From positions 1-61,168 of the forward strand of contig JAKSIU010000015.1 of assembly GCA_024398615.1 (NCBI GenBank): a stretch of 61,168 nucleotides of DNA, given 5' to 3'. The position numbers were made by a program, and so were the translations under genes. The notes beneath the pieces were generated by a model, which was not told the DNA's origin, ran no database searches, and saw only the letters and a program-made list of their open reading frames with translations. Below are positions 3,001 through 61,168 of this stretch, one piece after another. Source of the stretch: Bacteroidaceae bacterium (GTDB lineage Bacteria > Bacteroidota > Bacteroidia > Bacteroidales > Bacteroidaceae). Position 1 is the first letter of the stretch. The number at the start of each line of letters is the position of its first letter.

Positions 3001-3495
3001 GGTCATTCCATTATACGGTACATTCTGTCCCCAGGCAATATCTCCAAGAAGCGGTTCGACCATGGCAGGCAGTTCTGAAGCCGATGCAACCGCGTTTGAA
3101 AGAACCGCCCGTGATGGTACGGCTGACGGATGGGGCTGTTCTGAAGCATTGCGCATACGGCTGATTCCTTCAATATAGCCGTCAAGCACGCTGTTCAATT
3201 GAGAAGAAACATTCTGCGGGTCATAACTGCCACTGTCGCTGTAGCCAAGAATCCGGCGCGAAGTGCAGTCATCGGCCGATACTATCACATAACCTCCGTC
3301 CGTGCGGTTGAAAACATACAGGGCGGCAGTGCCATCCCGGCCCAGTGTGATGGCATCGGATATTACACCCTGCACGGGATGAAGAAACTGAACGGCCGTA
3401 CGGCGTGCCTCGTCTACTGTTACGGTCTCTGCAGCCAACGGCATTGTGAGCGTAAGGAACAGGAGTGTGGAAATGGTCTGCAATGGATGTTTCAT
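7..3495 (-). CDS. Secreted C10-family cysteine protease (streptopain/interpain-like) with leucine-rich repeats
   Basis: 1162 residues. A signal peptide (about 1-22) is followed by a Spi-like propeptide (about 23-115, VDEARRTAVQF and GYVIVSADD typical of C10 zymogens) and a C10 catalytic domain (about 145-370). The likely nucleophile is Cys182 in GCEPVALAQIMMYH and the catalytic His is His323 in GHMFVCDGYD, followed by NFGWDG. Residues about 540-1000 hold BspA-type LRR_5 repeats (SIGEKAFSSCSSL style) interleaved with other segments. About 1005-1110 resembles SusE/SusF-type starch-binding domains (YIVGSDGTWNP). The end (DLSGRPVQRP ... KIIYI) looks like a degenerate type A sorting tail. The motif around the Cys is GCEPVA instead of the usual GCVATA. 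A close paralogue lies two genes upstream, so gene duplication is likely. Export and proteolysis are inferred from family. Confidence 0.9.
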   Translation of the reverse strand: MKHPLQTISTLLFLTLTMPLAAETVTVDEARRTAVQFLHPVQGVISDAITLGRDGTAALYVFNRTDGGYVIVSADDCTSRRILGYSDSGSYDPQNVSSQLNSVLDGYIEGISRMRNASEQPHPSAVPSRAVLSNAVASASELPAMVEPLLGDIAWGQNVPYNGMTPTYVDGNGVTKHCPAGCEPVALAQIMMYHRWPENGRGSYSYEWKGQTLSADFSSSEYRWDLMVPDYSKASYTQEQADAVALLMHDIGIALNSNYNTSGSGASFNGYELTEFFDYDRNICNLSFGNCTVEEWESVLRSELAAGRPVICTGDPAPGAAGHMFVCDGYDGQGLFHFNFGWDGDSNGWFASNATGWETGKQIYYGIEKNHGGKGNPTMFLGDDFLWVSGNTLRVSSSQFYCAGFRSYSEVNLELGLALENVANGEISYCQVGPLRGNAHEFTLDEPVPDGSYHVYMVGRVEGQEWNVYRHDPIYQSVVDLDVTDGVKTWTNGNLVNPMDDGVYKVDNLYYLLDIQKAEATVTTRNKKGDSYSGAVTVPDEITVGDKVYKVTSIGEKAFSSCSSLNSVSLGKNVRSIDYCAFYNSSVISLSFAGTESLSEIGSAAFQNSRRLAEIVVPDGTCSIGARAFQGCHFLKNVAIPASVNYISSDIFNGIDRLETIHVAWTSFDGIMLSDDMFGALDRKKVILYVPEGTGDMYRTQPLWSAFDIREENGLPDCLEWSFEGATGTLTISGKGRMIWSEVNIPWADCSSYIRNVVIGEGIVKIPERLFLNLKSLESVTLPASLETIDNNAFAGCSSLSLIRCHASQPLDWTSAQMLFKSARSGVIVVPKGSDYSSWQSQLTDSWEIIGLDNVDVESRGFSFDFDYTTGLLSVEGYGVMPKYYNATTGSWSFLKNSIRQIELSEGISVIPGMAFDMCSHLESVRLPESLQYIGYSAFDFNTALKEITCMAKTAPELADEAFCDIASSGRLVIPDGADYSSWLQQLPSGWNIASGEPEKPQNLYIVGSDGTWNPAQASALLTLRSDGCHEGNVVVSDAGGGYGYFCIGTVLDSDWNVFNANRLGAPYSDCFLNGGDHASLIPGFDASFKVLAGTHHIVVDLESCTISLDCSNRVEPVSSVNEETFIDLSGRPVQRPMNGQTVISGAHKIIYIGSIDIEEPR

Positions 3496-43175: not shown

Positions 43176-43316
43176 ATGGAACACTGGGAGACTGATGTGC
43201 TCGGTCAGAGACTTGGCCACGCCGTAAAGGATTCGCTGAAGGATTCACGTTCAGCGTTCAAAATCAGGTATCAGTATTGTCAAGATGGCAGAATGTGGGT
43301 TTTTTGTCATCTCTGA
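43176..43316 (+). CDS. Possible 46-residue peptide
   Basis: From ATG at 43176 (MEHWETDVLGQRLGHAVKDSLKDSR ...), 4 bases after the stop of the small unknown gene. The last third of the reading frame runs through the first hairpin repeat at 43283-43312, and it is not recognisable, so it may be a chance frame. Listed for completeness. Confidence 0.2.
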   Translation: MEHWETDVLGQRLGHAVKDSLKDSRSAFKIRYQYCQDGRMWVFCHL

Positions 43317-43617
43317 TTTGGCGCCATGGGGAAGGTGCAACATGAGGAAAATGGGTCGAACCTGCGTACCCCTGTCAGAAGGCCTTCTGGGCGGGTTTTT
43401 CATTGTGCGGCGGAAAGTGCGCCCGCGTGCTTCCAGCTAGCGAACCATTTCATCAAAAACAAGATGACAAAATATGGGGTTCTTGTCATCTCACTGGAAT
43501 ACATGTCATGGCTGACAATATAATACCCCCGTAAGAAGGTATTCTGGATGGGGTGCAATGTTGAGAAGATTCTGTTTCATAACATGAGATGACAAAAATG
43601 GCATTAATTGCCATCTC
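43283..43617. repeat. Three short hairpins built on AGATGACAA/TTGTCATCT
   Basis: Hairpin 1 pairs 43283-43290 (AGATGGCA) with 43305-43312 (TGTCATCT). Hairpin 2 pairs 43462-43470 (AGATGACAA) with 43483-43491 (TTGTCATCT). Hairpin 3 pairs 43586-43595 (GAGATGACAA) with 43608-43617 (TTGCCATCTC) with one mismatch, and has an inner ATGGCA/TGCCAT stem. Between them, CCCCTGTCAGAAGGCCTTCTGG (43372-43393) and CCCCCGTAAGAAGGTATTCTGG also resemble one another, so a longer unit may have been duplicated and then drifted. No gene was found in 43317-44019. Confidence 0.65.
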
Positions 43618-43673
43618 GTCTTATACGTGAGTGCGGTTTGAGTGCGGATTACCATACTTCGTGTCCGCGGCAT

Positions 43674-43922
43674 TTTTGCATGATGGATGGTGGGATGTGC
43701 GGACTTTCCGTGGAATGGCCGCCGAGCGCCAAGGCCTTTCAGGCGTGAAGAAACGCGGCTGTCTGAGCGGCCAAGCCGCGAGTTCCGCGTTTCAGCCTGA
43801 AAGACCGAAGGAGCAGGCCATGGAGCGGCAGTCCGCACATCCCACCATCCATCATGCAAAACCTGTATTCAATAATAATGATATCGGATATCAGCAATCC
43901 CCACTATATTTCGACTGAGCCG
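43674..43922. repeat. Palindromic element, copy 1, with downstream tail
   Basis: The core 43674-43861 (188 bp) has perfect 32-base inverted ends (beginning TTTTGCATGATGGATGG, ending CCATCCATCATGCAAAA) and an inner stem pairing CTTTCAGGC with GCCTGAAAG, topped by GCGGC-CAA-GCCGC. It is followed by a tail shared with copy 2, ending ATTTCGACTGAGCCG at 43921. Both strands carry open frames through the palindrome, but these arise from its symmetry. The element lies between a plus-strand gene end and the end of the minus-strand GH43 gene. See copy 2 at 54258-54502. Confidence 0.85.
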
Positions 43923-52568: not shown

Positions 52569-53516
52569 ATGACTGAAATTACGGAAGAATTCTTGAAAAA
52601 GATTCTGTTATGGCGCATAAATGATTCACACAAAGCTAATTATGGTCATTTGCTCATTATAGCCGGATGTCAGAATATGCCAGGTGCTGCAGTACTGGCA
52701 ACAACCGCAGCACTACAGTCCGGATGCGGCCTTGTCACACTCCATTCCACTGAAAGGGCACTGGATTCGGCAGCGGTCAACTGTCCGTCGGCCATGCTTT
52801 CCTACAATCCGGGAAACTGCATAAGCGAAATGCCTGCCAACATGGACAAATACAGCGCCATCTGCATAGGTCCAGGTATCGGACAGTCACCGGAGACATC
52901 CAATGTGCTATCCAATATCCTTACATTCAGCAAATCATCGGGAATTCCCCTACTCATAGATGCCGATGCACTGAATTTGTTGGCTAAAAAACCCGATGAA
53001 ATGGTAAATATTGGCGAATGGTCAATATTAACGCCACACCCAGGGGAACTTCGCAGGCTCTTCAAAGGAATGGAATCCCTTGATGACAACATTTTTCACA
53101 ATACCGGAAAGTTGCCCGAAGTAAAGGAAAACATCGGTGAAAAGGACAAAAACAATTCGTCTTCCTATAGTGCGAATACCCCTATTGAAAACGCTATTTT
53201 TGATTTGTGTAAAGTGACGAATTCCACAATAATTGCCAAGGGATATCTCAGCAAGGTATTTTCCCCATCTGGCAAAATTTTCAAAAATAGCACAGGAGGT
53301 CCAGGACTGGCCAAGGCAGGCAGTGGAGATGTGCTGTCCGGACTTACAGCAGGACTTATGGCAAGAGGCTATATTGGAGTCAATGCCGCGCTTTTAGGCA
53401 CTTGGATACACGGAAAGGCAGGAGATATCCTGTCAGAACAGCGGACAATGGAAAGTTTCAGCAGTTTTGACCTTGCGAACAACCTTTTTCAGGCGTTCAA
53501 ACTGTTGTATCAATAA
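52569..53516 (+). CDS. nnrD: ADP-dependent (S)-NAD(P)H-hydrate dehydratase, stand-alone
   Basis: 315 residues. A ribokinase-like fold with the family end KAGSGDVLSGLTAGLMARG and the start GHLLIIAGCQNMPGAAVLAT. It repairs damaged NAD(P)H hydrates. Residues about 180-210 (NIFHNTGKLPEVKENIGEKDKNNSSSYSANT) form a low-complexity insert between the conserved HPGEL region and the nucleotide-binding KG segment that is longer than usual. The epimerase partner NnrE, often fused in the bacterial Nnr protein, is absent here. The gene is AT-rich compared with its neighbours. 31 bases ahead of cobB. Confidence 0.9.
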   Translation: MTEITEEFLKKILLWRINDSHKANYGHLLIIAGCQNMPGAAVLATTAALQSGCGLVTLHSTERALDSAAVNCPSAMLSYNPGNCISEMPANMDKYSAICIGPGIGQSPETSNVLSNILTFSKSSGIPLLIDADALNLLAKKPDEMVNIGEWSILTPHPGELRRLFKGMESLDDNIFHNTGKLPEVKENIGEKDKNNSSSYSANTPIENAIFDLCKVTNSTIIAKGYLSKVFSPSGKIFKNSTGGPGLAKAGSGDVLSGLTAGLMARGYIGVNAALLGTWIHGKAGDILSEQRTMESFSSFDLANNLFQAFKLLYQ

Positions 53517-53547
53517 GAAATATTCATACAACAATGCAAACACGAAT

Positions 53548-54276
53548 ATGGAGGAAAAGAAGAAACTGGTAGTCCTGAGCGGCTCAGGAATCAGTGCAGA
53601 GAGCGGCATTTCCACATTCCGCGGAGGAAACGGACTCTGGGACAACGAACCTGTCGAGGCAGTTGCCACAATTGAAGGATGGTACCGCGATCCCGCACGT
53701 GTAATAAGGTTCTATAATGAAAGGCGCGCCCAGCTGGCTACTGTAGAGCCCAACCGGGCCCACATCATACTGAAGGAACTTGAAGAACGGTTTGACGTGA
53801 CCGTAGTGACCCAGAACGTGGACAATCTTCATGAACGCGCCGGAAGCAGCAACATAATACATCTGCACGGAGAACTCACGAAAGTACGTCCCGTTGACTG
53901 CTACACCGACCAGGACTTCTACAGCACTAGGTACGTGACCGACATAGGCTACTCCCCCATCAGCCTTGGTGACAAGGGAGGTCCGCACAACACCCAGCTC
54001 AGGCCCCACATAGTCTGGTTCGGAGAACAGGTCCCCAATCTGGAATACGCCGCCCAGGCCGTCTCAGAGGCCGACATCCTGCTGATAGTCGGCACATCCA
54101 TGCAGGTCTATCCCGCAGCAGGTCTGTACCATTATGCCCCATCCCGCTGCCGCATCTTCATGATAGACCCGGATTCTGCCGCAGCAGCCCACGTAAGCCA
54201 GGTGACCCACATCCGCGAAGCCGCCACCACCGGCATGGAGCGCTTCCGTGAACTGCTGGATACATGTTTTGCATGA
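53548..54276 (+). CDS. cobB: NAD-dependent protein deacylase, class III sirtuin without zinc cysteines
   Basis: 242 residues from the ATG at 53548 (MEEKKKLVVLSGSGISAESG). Sirtuin motifs GSGISAESGISTFRG, TQNVDNLHERAGS, IIHLHGEL (catalytic His107). Tyr56 and Arg59 (FYNERR) match the YxxR pair that marks desuccinylase-type class III sirtuins. The four zinc cysteines usually seen past the HGEL region are missing (only one Cys in KVRPVDCYT). The last codons and the stop lie inside the palindromic element that begins at 54258. Confidence 0.92.
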   Translation: MEEKKKLVVLSGSGISAESGISTFRGGNGLWDNEPVEAVATIEGWYRDPARVIRFYNERRAQLATVEPNRAHIILKELEERFDVTVVTQNVDNLHERAGSSNIIHLHGELTKVRPVDCYTDQDFYSTRYVTDIGYSPISLGDKGGPHNTQLRPHIVWFGEQVPNLEYAAQAVSEADILLIVGTSMQVYPAAGLYHYAPSRCRIFMIDPDSAAAAHVSQVTHIREAATTGMERFRELLDTCFA

Positions 54277-54502
54277 TGGATGGGTGGCTATGCGGACTTT
54301 CCGTGGAATGGCCGCCAAGCGACAAGGTTTTCCAGGCGTGAAGAAACGCGGCTGTTTGAAGCGGCGGAGCCGCGAGTTCCGCGTTTCAGCCTGGAAAGCC
54401 GCAGGAGCAGGCCATGGAGCGGCAGTCCGCACAGCCACCCATCCATCATGCAAAACCTGTATCCAAAATGAGATCAGCCCCCACTGAATTTCGACTGAGC
54501 CG
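54258..54502. repeat. Palindromic element, copy 2, with downstream tail
   Basis: The core 54267-54455 (189 bp) has 32-base inverted ends with one mismatch, and outer flanks GGATACA (54258-54264) and TGTATCC (54458-54464) extend the pairing. It shares with copy 1 (43674-43922) the inner stem, the apical GCGGC/GCCGC hairpin and the tail ending ATTTCGACTGAGCCG. Several positions differ between copies but keep pairing. It contains the cobB stop codon and lies between cobB and the converging efflux operon, followed by a terminator. Confidence 0.85.
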
Positions 54503-54570: not shown

Positions 54571-57500
54571 TCACTTTTCCTTGCGGTGGAAAATCTTATA
54601 GACTACGGGGACTACCACCAGGGTAAGCATGGTGGAAAGTGTCATGCCGCCTATGATGACCCAACCTATGCCGTTTCTCAGCTCTGCTCCGGAACCGCTT
54701 GCCACGGCCACCGGAATCATGCCGATTACGGTTGACAGGGCTGTCATGAGAATCGGGCGTGTACGCAGGCGTACGGCCTCCAGAAGGGCCTTGTCCATTC
54801 TCTCGCTGTAGCTCATGCCGCTGTCCGTATCAAGCGCAAGCTGCTCGTTGGCAAAGTCAACCAGCAGAATGGCGTTCTTGGCCACCAGACCTATCAGCAT
54901 GACCAGACCCAGCATTGCATAGATGTTCATGGACGTTCCGGACAGGGCGAGCGCCAGAATGGCACCCAGAATGGAGAACGGTATGGAGAACATGACCACA
55001 AGCGGATCGACCCAGTTGTTGTACAGCACCACCATGGCCAGATACATGAGAATCATGCTCAGCATCATGGCCACTCCCATCACGCTCATGGAATCCATCA
55101 TGGACTTCATGTCACCCACGGTCTCCATGCTCATGCCCATCTCGCTTGCCTTGGCCTCGACCTTTTCCATGAACTGGGCCGATGCGGCACCTGCCGAAAT
55201 ACCGGCCACATTGGAACTGATTGTCACCGAGGGATTCCTGTTATAGCGTTCCAGACGGTTCGGACCCGTTCCAAGACTCACCTGAGCGAACTGATCAAGC
55301 GTAATACGGCTGCCCTGGGCGTTCACGAACGTCAGATTCGACACATCGTCAATGCTTTCCCTGTACATGCGGTCAGCGCGTATGTTGATGTCGTACTCGT
55401 AGTCATTACGCACGAACTTGATCTGCGTATTGCCCTGGAATGCCATCTGCATGGTCAGACCGACCGCATCGAGCGTCAGGCCCAGAGCCGACATCTTTTC
55501 GCGGTCCACGACCACCTGCACCTCAGGCATGCCGCTGCCGGTCGAAATCTGCTGCTGGAGCGTTCCTGGAATTGAACGCATGGCATCCAGCGCGTATTCG
55601 GCAAAGACGGCCACAGAATCGGCCTGAGTGCCCGAAATCACGTATTCCAAGGCCGATGAGTTACCGCTTCCGTGCAGCGTGGCGGCGAACATCCTTACCT
55701 TGGCGTCCACCAGATAGCTCTCAAGCTGCTTCTGAAGCGGTGCAATGTATCTCTTGACATGTCTGTCACGTTCCGATGGCGGAACCATCCTGACGTTAAT
55801 CTGAGCCATGTACGGCGTTCCCTGCGTGTTCTGGTCGTTGCTGCTTGTCAGACCCACCATTGTCACGCACTCGACTATCTCGGGCTTGTCCAGAAGCCAC
55901 GATTCGGCCTTTGCCACCATTGCACCCGACTCCTCTATTGAAATGTCCTTCGGCATCTCTATTATGGTCGAGAACTCGCTCTGATCGACATCGGGCATGA
56001 ATTCAAATCCTATGAATCCACCGGGGAAAAGTCCGCAAATAAGCACGGTGAGCACTATCACTGAAATGCCTACCCAGCGCTTGTGCCCCAGTGACCAGGA
56101 AAGGATACCTGCCACCCAGTCGGCAAAACGCTGCACCTGACGTTCAAACCACATCAGGAAGCGTCCCGAGGTGCGATTCCCGTCAAGCACCTCAAGCTTT
56201 CCGTAACGTGATGTCATGAGCGGCACCAGAGTCAGAGCGCTCAGCAGACTGAACAGGATAGCGAATACAATCACACCGCAGAACTGGCGCAGGATATCCG
56301 ATACCAGACTGTCAGTCAATGCAATAGGCAGGAATACCACAACCAGTACTATAGTCACCGTGATGACCGTCATGCCAATCTCGCGCATGGCATCGATGGT
56401 TGCCTGGACAGGCGTCTTGCCCATCTCCATGTGTCGGTAAACGTTCTCGATCACCACAATGGCATCGTCAACCAGCACACCTATGACGACCGACAGGCCC
56501 AGCAGTGACATCAGGTTCAGCGTGAAGCCGAACAGCTTCATGCCTATGAAAGCGCCAATTAAAGAAAGCGGCACTACAAGCATGACTATCAAAGCATTAC
56601 GCCAGTTATGCAGGAATACCAGAATGACCAGGGTCACCAGTATTATGGCCAGCAGCAGGTCAACGAGCACCGAACTGATTGAGGCCCGCGTGAACTCGCT
56701 GGTATCGGACACTATCTGCATCTGCAGGTTCTCGGCCTTGAACGAATTCTCCAGCTGGGCCATTGCCTCGCTGACACGGTCACTGAGGTCGATGGCGTTG
56801 GCATCGGACTGCTTGAATATGTTCAGCAGCACCGCTTCCCTGCCGTTCACACGGGCCAGCTTGTTCACTTCCTTGGTGGTCTCGACCACGTCGGCAACAT
56901 CCTGCAGGCGTATCTGAGTGCCGTTCGGCATGGTCATGAGTACCAGACTGCGGATTTCTTCAACACTGAGCAGCTTGCCTGACAGACGGATGGAGGTGCT
57001 GGTATTCTCGTTCTTCAGACTTCCGGTCGGGAAATCAAGGTTTGCGGCACGCAGGGAGCCCATGATCTGCACCGGAGTCAGTCCAAGAGCACGCATTGCC
57101 TCCATGTCCAGGTTGACCTGGATTTCACGCGGATGCAGGCCCACGGCATCGACCTTCGCCATGCCCTGTATGCGCAGCATTTCCGGAACCAGACGGTGTT
57201 CCACAAGGTCGCTGAAATCGGCCGTCTCAAGGTCGCTGGTCACTGACAGAGTCATTACCGACTTGTCATCGATGGTCATTTTGTTGATCATCGGAGACAG
57301 GATTCCCGACGGCAGCTCAGCCTTCTTGGAGTCGATCTTGTTCTGGGCATCGGATATGGATTTGTCAATGTCGGTACCGTAAACGAATGATACAAAGACC
57401 ATTGACATGCCTTCGAACGAGTAGGACCGCATGGATTCCACACCCTGAAGCGATGACAGAGCGTCTTCAAGCTTGCGCGTAAGCGAGCTCTCCACCTCCT

Positions 57501-57669
57501 GTGGCGATGCGCCCGGATAAACCACCTGCACGTTCATTGACGGCGGCGTGAACTTGGGCATGAGTTCGGCCTGCAGGGACGAAAATCCCAGATAGCCCAG
57601 AATGGCTATCACCAGGAACAGCACAATCACATAGATCGGCCTCCTGATTGAAAGTTCTGATATCTTCAT
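54571..57669 (-). CDS. RND-family multidrug efflux transporter (AcrB/HAE1-like)
   Basis: 1032 residues, twelve membrane segments in two halves with two large periplasmic loops. Start ISELSIRRPIYVIVLFLVIAILGYLGF; the proton-relay Asp pair is in GVLVDDAIVVIENVYRH. End LRNGIGWVIIGGMTLSTMLTLVVVPVVY is family-typical. It takes proton-driven substrates from periplasm or inner membrane and passes them to the adaptor and TolC-like channel next to it. Follows the adaptor gene by 18 bases and is last in the operon. Substrates are unknown. Confidence 0.96.
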   Translation of the reverse strand: MKISELSIRRPIYVIVLFLVIAILGYLGFSSLQAELMPKFTPPSMNVQVVYPGASPQEVESSLTRKLEDALSSLQGVESMRSYSFEGMSMVFVSFVYGTDIDKSISDAQNKIDSKKAELPSGILSPMINKMTIDDKSVMTLSVTSDLETADFSDLVEHRLVPEMLRIQGMAKVDAVGLHPREIQVNLDMEAMRALGLTPVQIMGSLRAANLDFPTGSLKNENTSTSIRLSGKLLSVEEIRSLVLMTMPNGTQIRLQDVADVVETTKEVNKLARVNGREAVLLNIFKQSDANAIDLSDRVSEAMAQLENSFKAENLQMQIVSDTSEFTRASISSVLVDLLLAIILVTLVILVFLHNWRNALIVMLVVPLSLIGAFIGMKLFGFTLNLMSLLGLSVVIGVLVDDAIVVIENVYRHMEMGKTPVQATIDAMREIGMTVITVTIVLVVVFLPIALTDSLVSDILRQFCGVIVFAILFSLLSALTLVPLMTSRYGKLEVLDGNRTSGRFLMWFERQVQRFADWVAGILSWSLGHKRWVGISVIVLTVLICGLFPGGFIGFEFMPDVDQSEFSTIIEMPKDISIEESGAMVAKAESWLLDKPEIVECVTMVGLTSSNDQNTQGTPYMAQINVRMVPPSERDRHVKRYIAPLQKQLESYLVDAKVRMFAATLHGSGNSSALEYVISGTQADSVAVFAEYALDAMRSIPGTLQQQISTGSGMPEVQVVVDREKMSALGLTLDAVGLTMQMAFQGNTQIKFVRNDYEYDINIRADRMYRESIDDVSNLTFVNAQGSRITLDQFAQVSLGTGPNRLERYNRNPSVTISSNVAGISAGAASAQFMEKVEAKASEMGMSMETVGDMKSMMDSMSVMGVAMMLSMILMYLAMVVLYNNWVDPLVVMFSIPFSILGAILALALSGTSMNIYAMLGLVMLIGLVAKNAILLVDFANEQLALDTDSGMSYSERMDKALLEAVRLRTRPILMTALSTVIGMIPVAVASGSGAELRNGIGWVIIGGMTLSTMLTLVVVPVVYKIFHRKEK

Positions 57670-60725: not shown

Positions 60726-60761
60726 CAAAATTACACAATCAAATTAAAAACTGTGTAATTT
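60726..60761 (-). promoter_or_regulatory. tetR-efflux promoter overlapped by an inverted-repeat operator
   Basis: A perfect 10-base inverted repeat, AAATTACACA (60728-60737) and TGTGTAATTT (60752-60761), around a 14-base spacer. The minus-strand -7 element TAATTTTG occupies 60726-60733 and overlaps the first arm by six bases, so a protein bound here would block RNA polymerase. No clear -33 was seen. It is the natural operator of the adjacent TetR regulator; binding itself is inferred. Confidence 0.65.
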
Positions 60762-60797
60762 ACGAGCGAATTTTGCCATATTATGGACATTTTGCTA

Positions 60798-61168
60798 AAT
60801 ACGCTCCCTCGCGGGATCTCGCGGTGAGCAATCCCGCGGGATTCACGCACGGGACAGCCATTTGGAACACCGCGGTGAGTGGATTGCCGTGATTCGCTCA
60901 CGGAATGGAAATACGCTCCCTCGCGGCGAGCAATCCCACGGGTTTCACGCACGGGATGACCATTTGAAGAGCCACGGTGAGTGGATTGCCGTGATTCGCT
61001 CACGGAACGGGAATACGTTCCCTCGCGGTGAGCAATCCCGCGGGATTCACGCACGGGACAACCATTTGGAAAACCGCGGTGAGTGGATGACCCCGATTCG
61101 CTCACGGAATGGAAATACGTTCCCTCGCGGTGAGCAATCCCGCGGGATTCACGCACGGGACAACCATT
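60798..61168. repeat. 102-bp tandem repeat array running off the window end
   Basis: Unit starts (AATACG) at 60798, 60910, 61012 and 61114: steps of 112, 102 and 102 bases, the first longer by a ten-base duplication (CTCGCGGGATCTCGCGG). Each unit holds two related half-units of about 51 bases, one with the 14-base palindrome AATCCCGCGGGATT (GTGAGC before, CACGCAC after) and one with GTGAG ... CTCAC. The period is a multiple of three, giving open frames on the minus strand with a 34-residue repeat, which are not credible proteins. Nothing like spacers of a CRISPR is present. It is cut by the window end. Confidence 0.9.

Follow-up and report, generated by a model that had tools for sequence, protein, structure and literature searches.

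The two palindromes found in the window, the 61,168-nucleotide stretch of DNA analysed here, are members of a dispersed, lineage-specific family, whose full and partial copies number at least 26 in the genome of their Bacteroidaceae host. Three observations define this family and its relatives. The arms of the palindrome stay complementary while their sequence turns over; one tip motif, CTGTYTGAGCG-loop-CGAGTT (also written CTGTNTGAGCG-loop-CGAGTT), caps long hairpins of distant bacteria whose stems are unrelated; and, in MAGs of distant lineages, the hairpin lies within elements that end in terminal inverted repeats and are flanked by exact duplications of 8 bp of target. We give about an even chance to the explanation that the element is a non-autonomous mobile repeat built around a long, imperfectly paired hairpin whose tip is conserved. 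Taken as a group, the capped palindromes look like an undescribed, widespread sort of non-autonomous mobile hairpin, similar to REPs and MITEs.

Copy 1 and copy 2 have the same layout, with the following features:

43665..43673, plus strand: left flank box CCGCGGCAT (consensus CCGCGACAT), immediately 5' of the copy 1 palindrome
43674..43861, plus strand: copy 1, capped palindrome; the motif strand is the plus strand
43674..43705, plus strand: copy 1, 5' outer arm, 32 nt, 100% complementary to 43830-43861
43735..43744, plus strand: copy 1, inner stem, 5' side CCTTTCAGGC, opposite 43795-43804
43751..43758, plus strand: copy 1, below-tip stem AAACGCGG, opposite 43785-43792 CCGCGTTT
43759..43784, plus strand: copy 1, conserved hairpin tip CTGTCTGAGCGGCCAAGCCGCGAGTT
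43795..43804, plus strand: copy 1, inner stem, 3' side GCCTGAAAGA
43830..43861, plus strand: copy 1, 3' outer arm, 32 nt, partner of 43674-43705
43862..43898, plus strand: copy 1, right segment of the larger repeat, present in part of the copies
43899..43921, minus strand: copy 1, terminal-repeat-like end GGCTCAGTCGAAATATAGTGGGG, read on the minus strand
54267..54455, plus strand: copy 2, capped palindrome
54267..54298, plus strand: copy 2, 5' outer arm
54352..54378, plus strand: copy 2, hairpin tip variant CTGTTTGAAGCGGCGGAGCCGCGAGTT
54424..54455, plus strand: copy 2, 3' outer arm
54479..54501, minus strand: copy 2, terminal-repeat-like end GGCTCAGTCGAAATTCAGTGGGG

An earlier, sequence-only reading of this DNA had described two palindromes with 32-base inverted ends and a nested inner stem, and that description holds for both copies. 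Their folds score z = -11.89 (copy 1) and -12.55 (copy 2), values reached in 0 of 200 shuffles each. The repeat continues 3' of the copy 1 palindrome as far as 43922, where the 23-nt terminal-repeat-like end CCCCACTATATTTCGACTGAGCC at 43899-43921 has a near-identical counterpart beside copy 2 at 54479-54501. In a flank alignment inspected by eye, the left flank box is common to most aligned copies and absent from copy 2 and from one further copy, L030. Both window copies are single rather than in doublets, and neither has a target-site duplication, as the earlier reading had noted. The first bases of copy 2 form the stop codon of ORF 53467-54276, which we take to be sirtuin-like.

The two copies differ in the 5' outer arm (43691-43698, TGGGATGT, in copy 1 versus 54284-54291, GTGGCTAT, in copy 2), and the arm opposite reads ACATCCCA in copy 1 versus ACAGCCAC in copy 2. 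Three of these differences are matched across the stem (T.A to G.C, G.C to T.A and A.T to C.G), as the sequence-only reading had pointed out, and every one is a transversion; a fourth, G to A, is unmatched, so that copy 2 has an A.C mismatch there. The two matched changes that it had also reported in the inner stem are present as well; both are transitions, accompanied by one position that is C.A in one copy and T.G in the other.

The host assembly (2.46 Mb, 72 contigs, about 82% complete) was searched with copy 1, which returned 19 full-length and two near-full places (on contigs C45 and C14), together with five partial copies (C71, C64, C16, C67:40337 and C56:16200); reverse-strand and tip-only matches were obtained apart from these. 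The suspicion that the palindrome is a dispersed repeat was thus correct. None of 60 further genomes (36 from the genus, 24 from the order) yielded the whole element. The search of related genomes that had been suggested earlier succeeded only for the tip: one congener, G030, carries a single long hairpin that has the tip region alone in common with the window element. Searches of plasmids and phages gave no match to the window element; for a Variovorax element, they returned one Variovorax record. The ORF left of copy 2 has relatives in 33 of 36 congeners, and in the nine congener loci examined (of 29 fetched, over 420 bases) the palindrome is absent downstream of this ORF and no shared downstream sequence was recognised that would mark the empty site. 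Two loci, L039 and L040, appear by eye to be head-to-head fusions of two palindrome 3' halves that lack the tip, an arrangement that inverted rearrangement would produce.

Alignment of the 21 full and near-full copies confirmed that pairing is retained as the sequence changes: 95.9% of 1522 cells are paired, and both bases are substituted at 23 of 73 pairs (80 cells). When the partner is shifted by 1-3 columns, pairing falls to 35-39%. The covariation score of the aligned copies, a check that the sequence-only reading had proposed, is 0.174 versus 0.066 in shuffles, and 0 of 500 shuffles reach any of five measures. In 17 of the 21 copies (all except L016, L022, L028 and L029), the copy's own 3' arm pairs with its 5' arm at least as well as the 3' arm of any other copy, and the mean arm duplex energy is -62.8 for own arms versus -41.5 for crossed ones.

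The manner of change differs between the outer and the inner helices. In the outer helix of the 17 well-aligned copies in clean register (L030-L033 left out), double-change cells number 38 of transversion type versus 3 of transition type, with 4 wobble and 8 mismatch cells; inclusion of L030-L033 gives 53, 14, 8 and 27, partly through misregister in these four copies. In the inner helices of all 21 copies, double cells comprise 10 transitions and 0 transversions, next to 12 wobbles and 16 mismatches. The unit counted here is the cell, and neighbouring columns do not vary independently; the adjacent double changes in alignment columns 19-25 are probably few events. Counted instead by pair-column variants, the ratio of transversions to transitions is 11:3 in the outer helix of the 17 copies versus 0:4 in the inner helices. 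Pairwise comparison of the outer arms of the 17 copies yields 485 double versus 156 single differences. Of the 11 single-sided variants, 10 are confined to one copy each; of the 14 double ones, 6 recur in more than one copy. Three copies (L018, L024 and L026) have mirrored indels, that is, length changes in both arms.

Ordinary compensation goes through G.U and mismatched intermediates. The transversion-rich double changes, the mirrored indels and the scarcity of intermediates together suggest that one arm is copied from the other, and, judging by the substitution pattern, copied patches would explain the changes in the outer arms better than stepwise compensation. The inner helices look like ordinary compensation. 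The earlier idea that the palindrome maintains itself through a copying mechanism is the better fit for the outer arms. The proposed mechanism is that the arms fold on each other and one serves as template for the other, which would leave mirrored patches in the outer arms; such rewriting might occur by template switching at the hairpin as the element is replicated or transposed, while a putative protein recognising the folded form would keep the tip and the internal loops constant. The pattern is not universal. It is absent in two sets from distant MAGs, S144/M17, where singles outnumber doubles (39 wobbles and 23 mismatches versus 9 and 5 doubles), and G455 (12 wobble and 12 mismatch cells versus 4 doubles). 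It is partial in the Variovorax-type set (42 transversion, 19 transition, 13 wobble and 23 mismatch cells) and in the Veillonellaceae set (48, 29, 23 and 14, respectively). The outer arms constitute a natural record of paired changes, so that arm-to-arm copying is testable in many-copy genomes.

The tip consists of an internal loop, CTGTYTGA ... GAGTT, above a GC stem. The same tip caps two further families of hairpins of about 220 nt in the host genome, with unrelated arms. The second family is found twice on contig C6 (L037:2001-2036 and 3336-3371) and at G000:C1:138996, C33:17971 and C34:102177, with arms of the type GGTGGAACGGAAACCGCCACC...; the third is on contig C17, and by eye the three families have no common arm. 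A scan of 84,980 species genomes returned at least 109 tip stretches. By eye, many of the inspected ones sit at the apex of long dispersed palindromes, and several others resemble matches in coding sequence (for example, L079, L091, L116, L132 and L145). Tip-capped dispersed hairpins with unrelated stems occur in Proteobacteria, Bacillota and an acidobacterium. A relaxed motif is present in 32 of the 36 genomes behind the chosen loci and has no match in the other four; the richest genomes hold 211, 144, 111, 27, 22, 16 and 13 copies. The reversed-pattern control gave 0 in 35 of the 36 genomes, including the three MAGs with 211, 144 and 111 tips, and 1 in the remaining genome. Within the Variovorax genus group, the motif is present in 41 of 61 genomes, with one reversed-control match in one genome. 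The strict motif was found in 0 of 394 other genomes drawn from the host phylum, so the motif is rare near the host. Viral contigs gave eight stretches, of which, by eye, six resemble matches in coding sequence and two (L184 and L187) resemble the Variovorax-type hairpin.

The stem below the tip covaries between loci. In 32 chosen loci, the six pairs of the below-tip stem form in 152 of 192 positions, a number reached in 0 of 5000 partner shuffles (mean 122.7, largest 140). Pairs 3-5 are partly set by the search pattern; pairs 1 and 2, which the pattern leaves free, form in 25 and 24 of the 32 loci and show GC, AT, CG and TA combinations. The invariance of the tip is itself partly ascertainment, since the search pattern prescribed the motif. 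Global folds of 24 loci, compared with shuffled flanks by a crude measure that counts every pair spanning the tip, lie above the shuffled mean in 22 (L129 and L147 fall below it) and above the largest of 30 shuffles in 9. By eye, four loci (L083, L085, L140 and L158) have a second internal loop, GAGNANCGCAG-like on both strands, about 25-40 nt below the tip. Also by eye, the capped hairpin of several loci, namely L077 and L120 in Variovorax and L192-L211 of Veillonellaceae type, is succeeded by a second one, TTTCTTT..ACTTTCTTT[loop]AAAGAAAGT.

The units that carry the hairpin differ among lineages: they are MITE-like elements in distant MAGs and inverted doublets in Variovorax. Short elements with ends of the GTAACT.TTCAGC type enclose the hairpin in G455 and in loci assigned by sequence to the Deltaproteobacteria MAG type (S144_17 and M17). 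Among 21 distant-MAG frames chosen for having both ends (GTA.CT.TTCAGC-type), 12 have an exact 8-bp target duplication and 17 have one with at most one mismatch. Such GTAAC ends with 8-bp duplications are, we presume, IS66-like. In the host genome, a search with up to two mismatches over 900 bases left and 400 bases right of each copy showed that 3 of 21 copies (L019, L021 and L027) are flanked by a 13-nt end on both sides, 10 on one side and 8 on neither; the right end, of type CCCCACTAAATTTCGACTGAGCC, is present in 10 of 21 copies and the left end in 6 of 21. L021 has the ends GGCTCACCCGAAA/TTTCGGGTGAGCC and a clean 8-bp target duplication, GAAATAGT, the only one among the three two-ended copies, as L019 and L027 have none. 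The proposal of a MITE-like repeat, made earlier from the window, is partly supported, by L021, and finds no clean case among the other host copies. Four of the 37 genus genomes have ends of the form GGCTCAGTSGAAA...GTGGGG, which often lie at the edge of a contig, as multi-copy elements tend to. The segment left of the palindrome varies among copies, so that the unit is mosaic; in L026, a fragment of another copy is nested there. In Variovorax, 34 close tip pairs, drawn from part of the listed tip places, are oriented '-+' in 29 cases, '--' in 3, '++' in 2 and '+-' in 0.

The element resembles the MITEs of DDE insertion sequences in its terminal inverted repeats and 8-bp duplications (distant MAGs and L021), and is unlike them in its long interior hairpin and in a tip common to elements with different ends and hosts. 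On the explanation that we prefer, a non-autonomous mobile repeat built on a capped hairpin, MITE-like units with GGCTCA...TGAGCC ends would have carried the hairpin inside them as they spread through the host genome, mobilised in trans by an end-recognising transposase that may now be lost or unassembled. We lean towards DNA rather than RNA as the folded strand, because outer-arm changes rarely go via G.U and because orientation to genes varies between lineages.

A broader version of this explanation, which we hold tentatively, makes the capped long hairpins a distinct class of mobile hairpin across phyla, with a widespread tip-recognising enzyme and arms regenerated by copying themselves. 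It would explain why, in one Legionellaceae MAG, loci L102 and L278 have about 65 nt around the tip in common and outer arms that are unrelated yet perfectly paired, and why the three host families have a common tip and different arms. A 17-base tip on otherwise unrelated repeats implies that one recogniser serves them all or that the core is highly mobile. Tip sharing spans Proteobacteria, Bacillota, an acidobacterium and the window's host, and is absent from Rfam and from the papers searched. Searches of the open literature by sequence and by description did not recognise the repeat among the matches listed; it may carry an older name. The sequence-only reading had overlooked the tip, which links the element to long hairpins of other phyla.

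It is unlikely, in our estimate, that the hairpin is a structured non-coding RNA, mobile or a host gene, with a protein-bound tip and loops and spread through MITE carriage. Conserved loops and covarying stems are what structured RNAs in Rfam also display, and the inner helices compensate by transitions only; the outer-arm double changes in the window family are mainly of transversion type. Rfam has no match at gathering score in the window, and at E-values up to 5 over 10 loci it gave nine matches, none overlapping the tip hairpin. Strand asymmetry of G.T versus A.C cells was assessed in sets of 26, 14, 29 and 23 sequences, composed of fetched loci with long flanks, no N and a family-marking word. 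The S144/M17 set has a G.T:A.C ratio of 39:9 on the motif strand and 14:14 on the other strand, as an RNA would. However, the window family is near-equal on both strands (9:6 and 10:5), and the remaining small sets give 12:7 and 4:5 (G455), 6:4 and 3:6 (Variovorax-type) and 4:2 and 7:5 (Veillonellaceae), so that as a test of RNA versus DNA the asymmetry is weak and inconsistent across families. The lineage-dependent orientation relative to genes also argues against an RNA.

A little harder to credit is a REP- or REPIN-like system, in which the hairpin would be the single-stranded DNA substrate of a HuH transposase (Y1, RAYT-type) acting in trans, with the tip as recognition site and doublets as the mobile form. 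Like REPs and REPINs (BIMEs) with their RAYTs, the element is a dispersed, non-autonomous extragenic palindrome in many copies, and the inverted doublets of Variovorax recall REPINs. REPs are described as palindromes of 20-40 nt with a GTAG or CGTC tag (PMC3733652), whereas the hairpin is 188 nt long with internal loops in the window and about 80-230 nt in other lineages, and no such tag is found at the foot of either window copy. The 8-bp target duplications with terminal repeats in other genomes also speak against this system; HuH elements are not known to make target duplications. Y1_Tnp matches are present in 12 of 18 tip-bearing genomes, eight of them, the host included, with a single match, but controls have them in 5 of 14, so the former count is not telling. 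Six of the 18 have no Y1_Tnp match, one of these with 144 tips, although several are MAGs and may be incomplete. The sequence-only reading had suggested looking for a Y1 transposase with matching ends; the fetched flanks of 18 of 19 Y1 loci, including the one in the host genome (L042), are without a tip hairpin, and in the sole exception, L278, the Y1 fragment is broken. We therefore file the element as a non-autonomous palindromic mobile repeat that differs from REPs in size, tag and gene linkage.

The searches turned up no mobilising enzyme for the capped hairpin. By eye, the ORF list for positions 38000-61168 contains no transposase, in agreement with the sequence-only reading. IS66 (PF03050) matches occur in 9 of 18 tip-bearing genomes, the host not among them, and in 4 of 14 controls; 30 IS66 loci have no tip hairpin in their flanks, and the GTAAC..TTCA-type end is absent from the four IS66 and two Y1 loci examined for it. 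A recurrent neighbouring transposase was sought by eye in the 25 largest groups of 368 ORFs within 1.6 kb of tips, and none was seen. The largest groups are mostly the repeats' own frames, with RND-transporter-like frames in four loci and a response regulator in three.

That the element is an ordinary MITE family of one insertion sequence, with the tip elsewhere a matter of convergence or coincidence, is quite improbable. The terminal repeats and target duplication of L021 fit such a family. So does congener G014, in which a similar terminal end lies about 36 bases past an ORF weakly like an IS4 transposase (57 bits versus a 250-bit cut-off in NCBIfam, no Pfam match); this link of the element ends to an insertion sequence rests on one ORF in one congener, as relatives of the ORF were found in one of four genomes searched, G014 itself, and not in the host assembly. 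Coincidence is hard to reconcile with up to 211 motif matches in genomes whose reversed-pattern control is empty, with two more host families that carry the same tip on unrelated arms, or with a below-tip stem that covaries between loci.

It is very improbable that the palindrome is a bidirectional terminator or insulator at gene 3' ends, mobile but retained for that use: the right-hand gene is directed towards the element in 20 of 25 host copies (L035, at a contig end, omitted) and, where both neighbours are known, 11 of 21 are convergent and 2 divergent, but several copies already adjoin a separate intrinsic-terminator-like hairpin (by eye), right-hand neighbours of low-GC loci in other lineages show no preferred direction (14:12 and 5:5), the left-hand gene is directed away from the element in 16 of 22 S144-type loci, and the ORF caller behind these counts is crude, having missed the ORF left of copy 2.

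Several further features were noticed around the palindromes. The ORF adjoining copy 2 on its right, 54571-57669, is presumably RND-transporter-like, and the RND-like frames that cluster near tips in four loci of other genomes (L126, L168, L180 and L086) probably resemble it by coincidence. In the second capped family, the two copies on contig C6 bracket an ORF with RAEG repeats near its C-terminus. Upstream of copy 1, three copies of a 33-nt stretch lie at 43281-43617, each by eye a small hairpin, AGATGACAAAA...TTTTGTCATCTC, and similar stretches are found left of some other copies. At the far end of the window, positions 60818-61168 hold a tandem array of a 102-bp unit in 3.4 copies, which runs up to the window end and overlaps a repetitive ORF on the minus strand (60731-61156).
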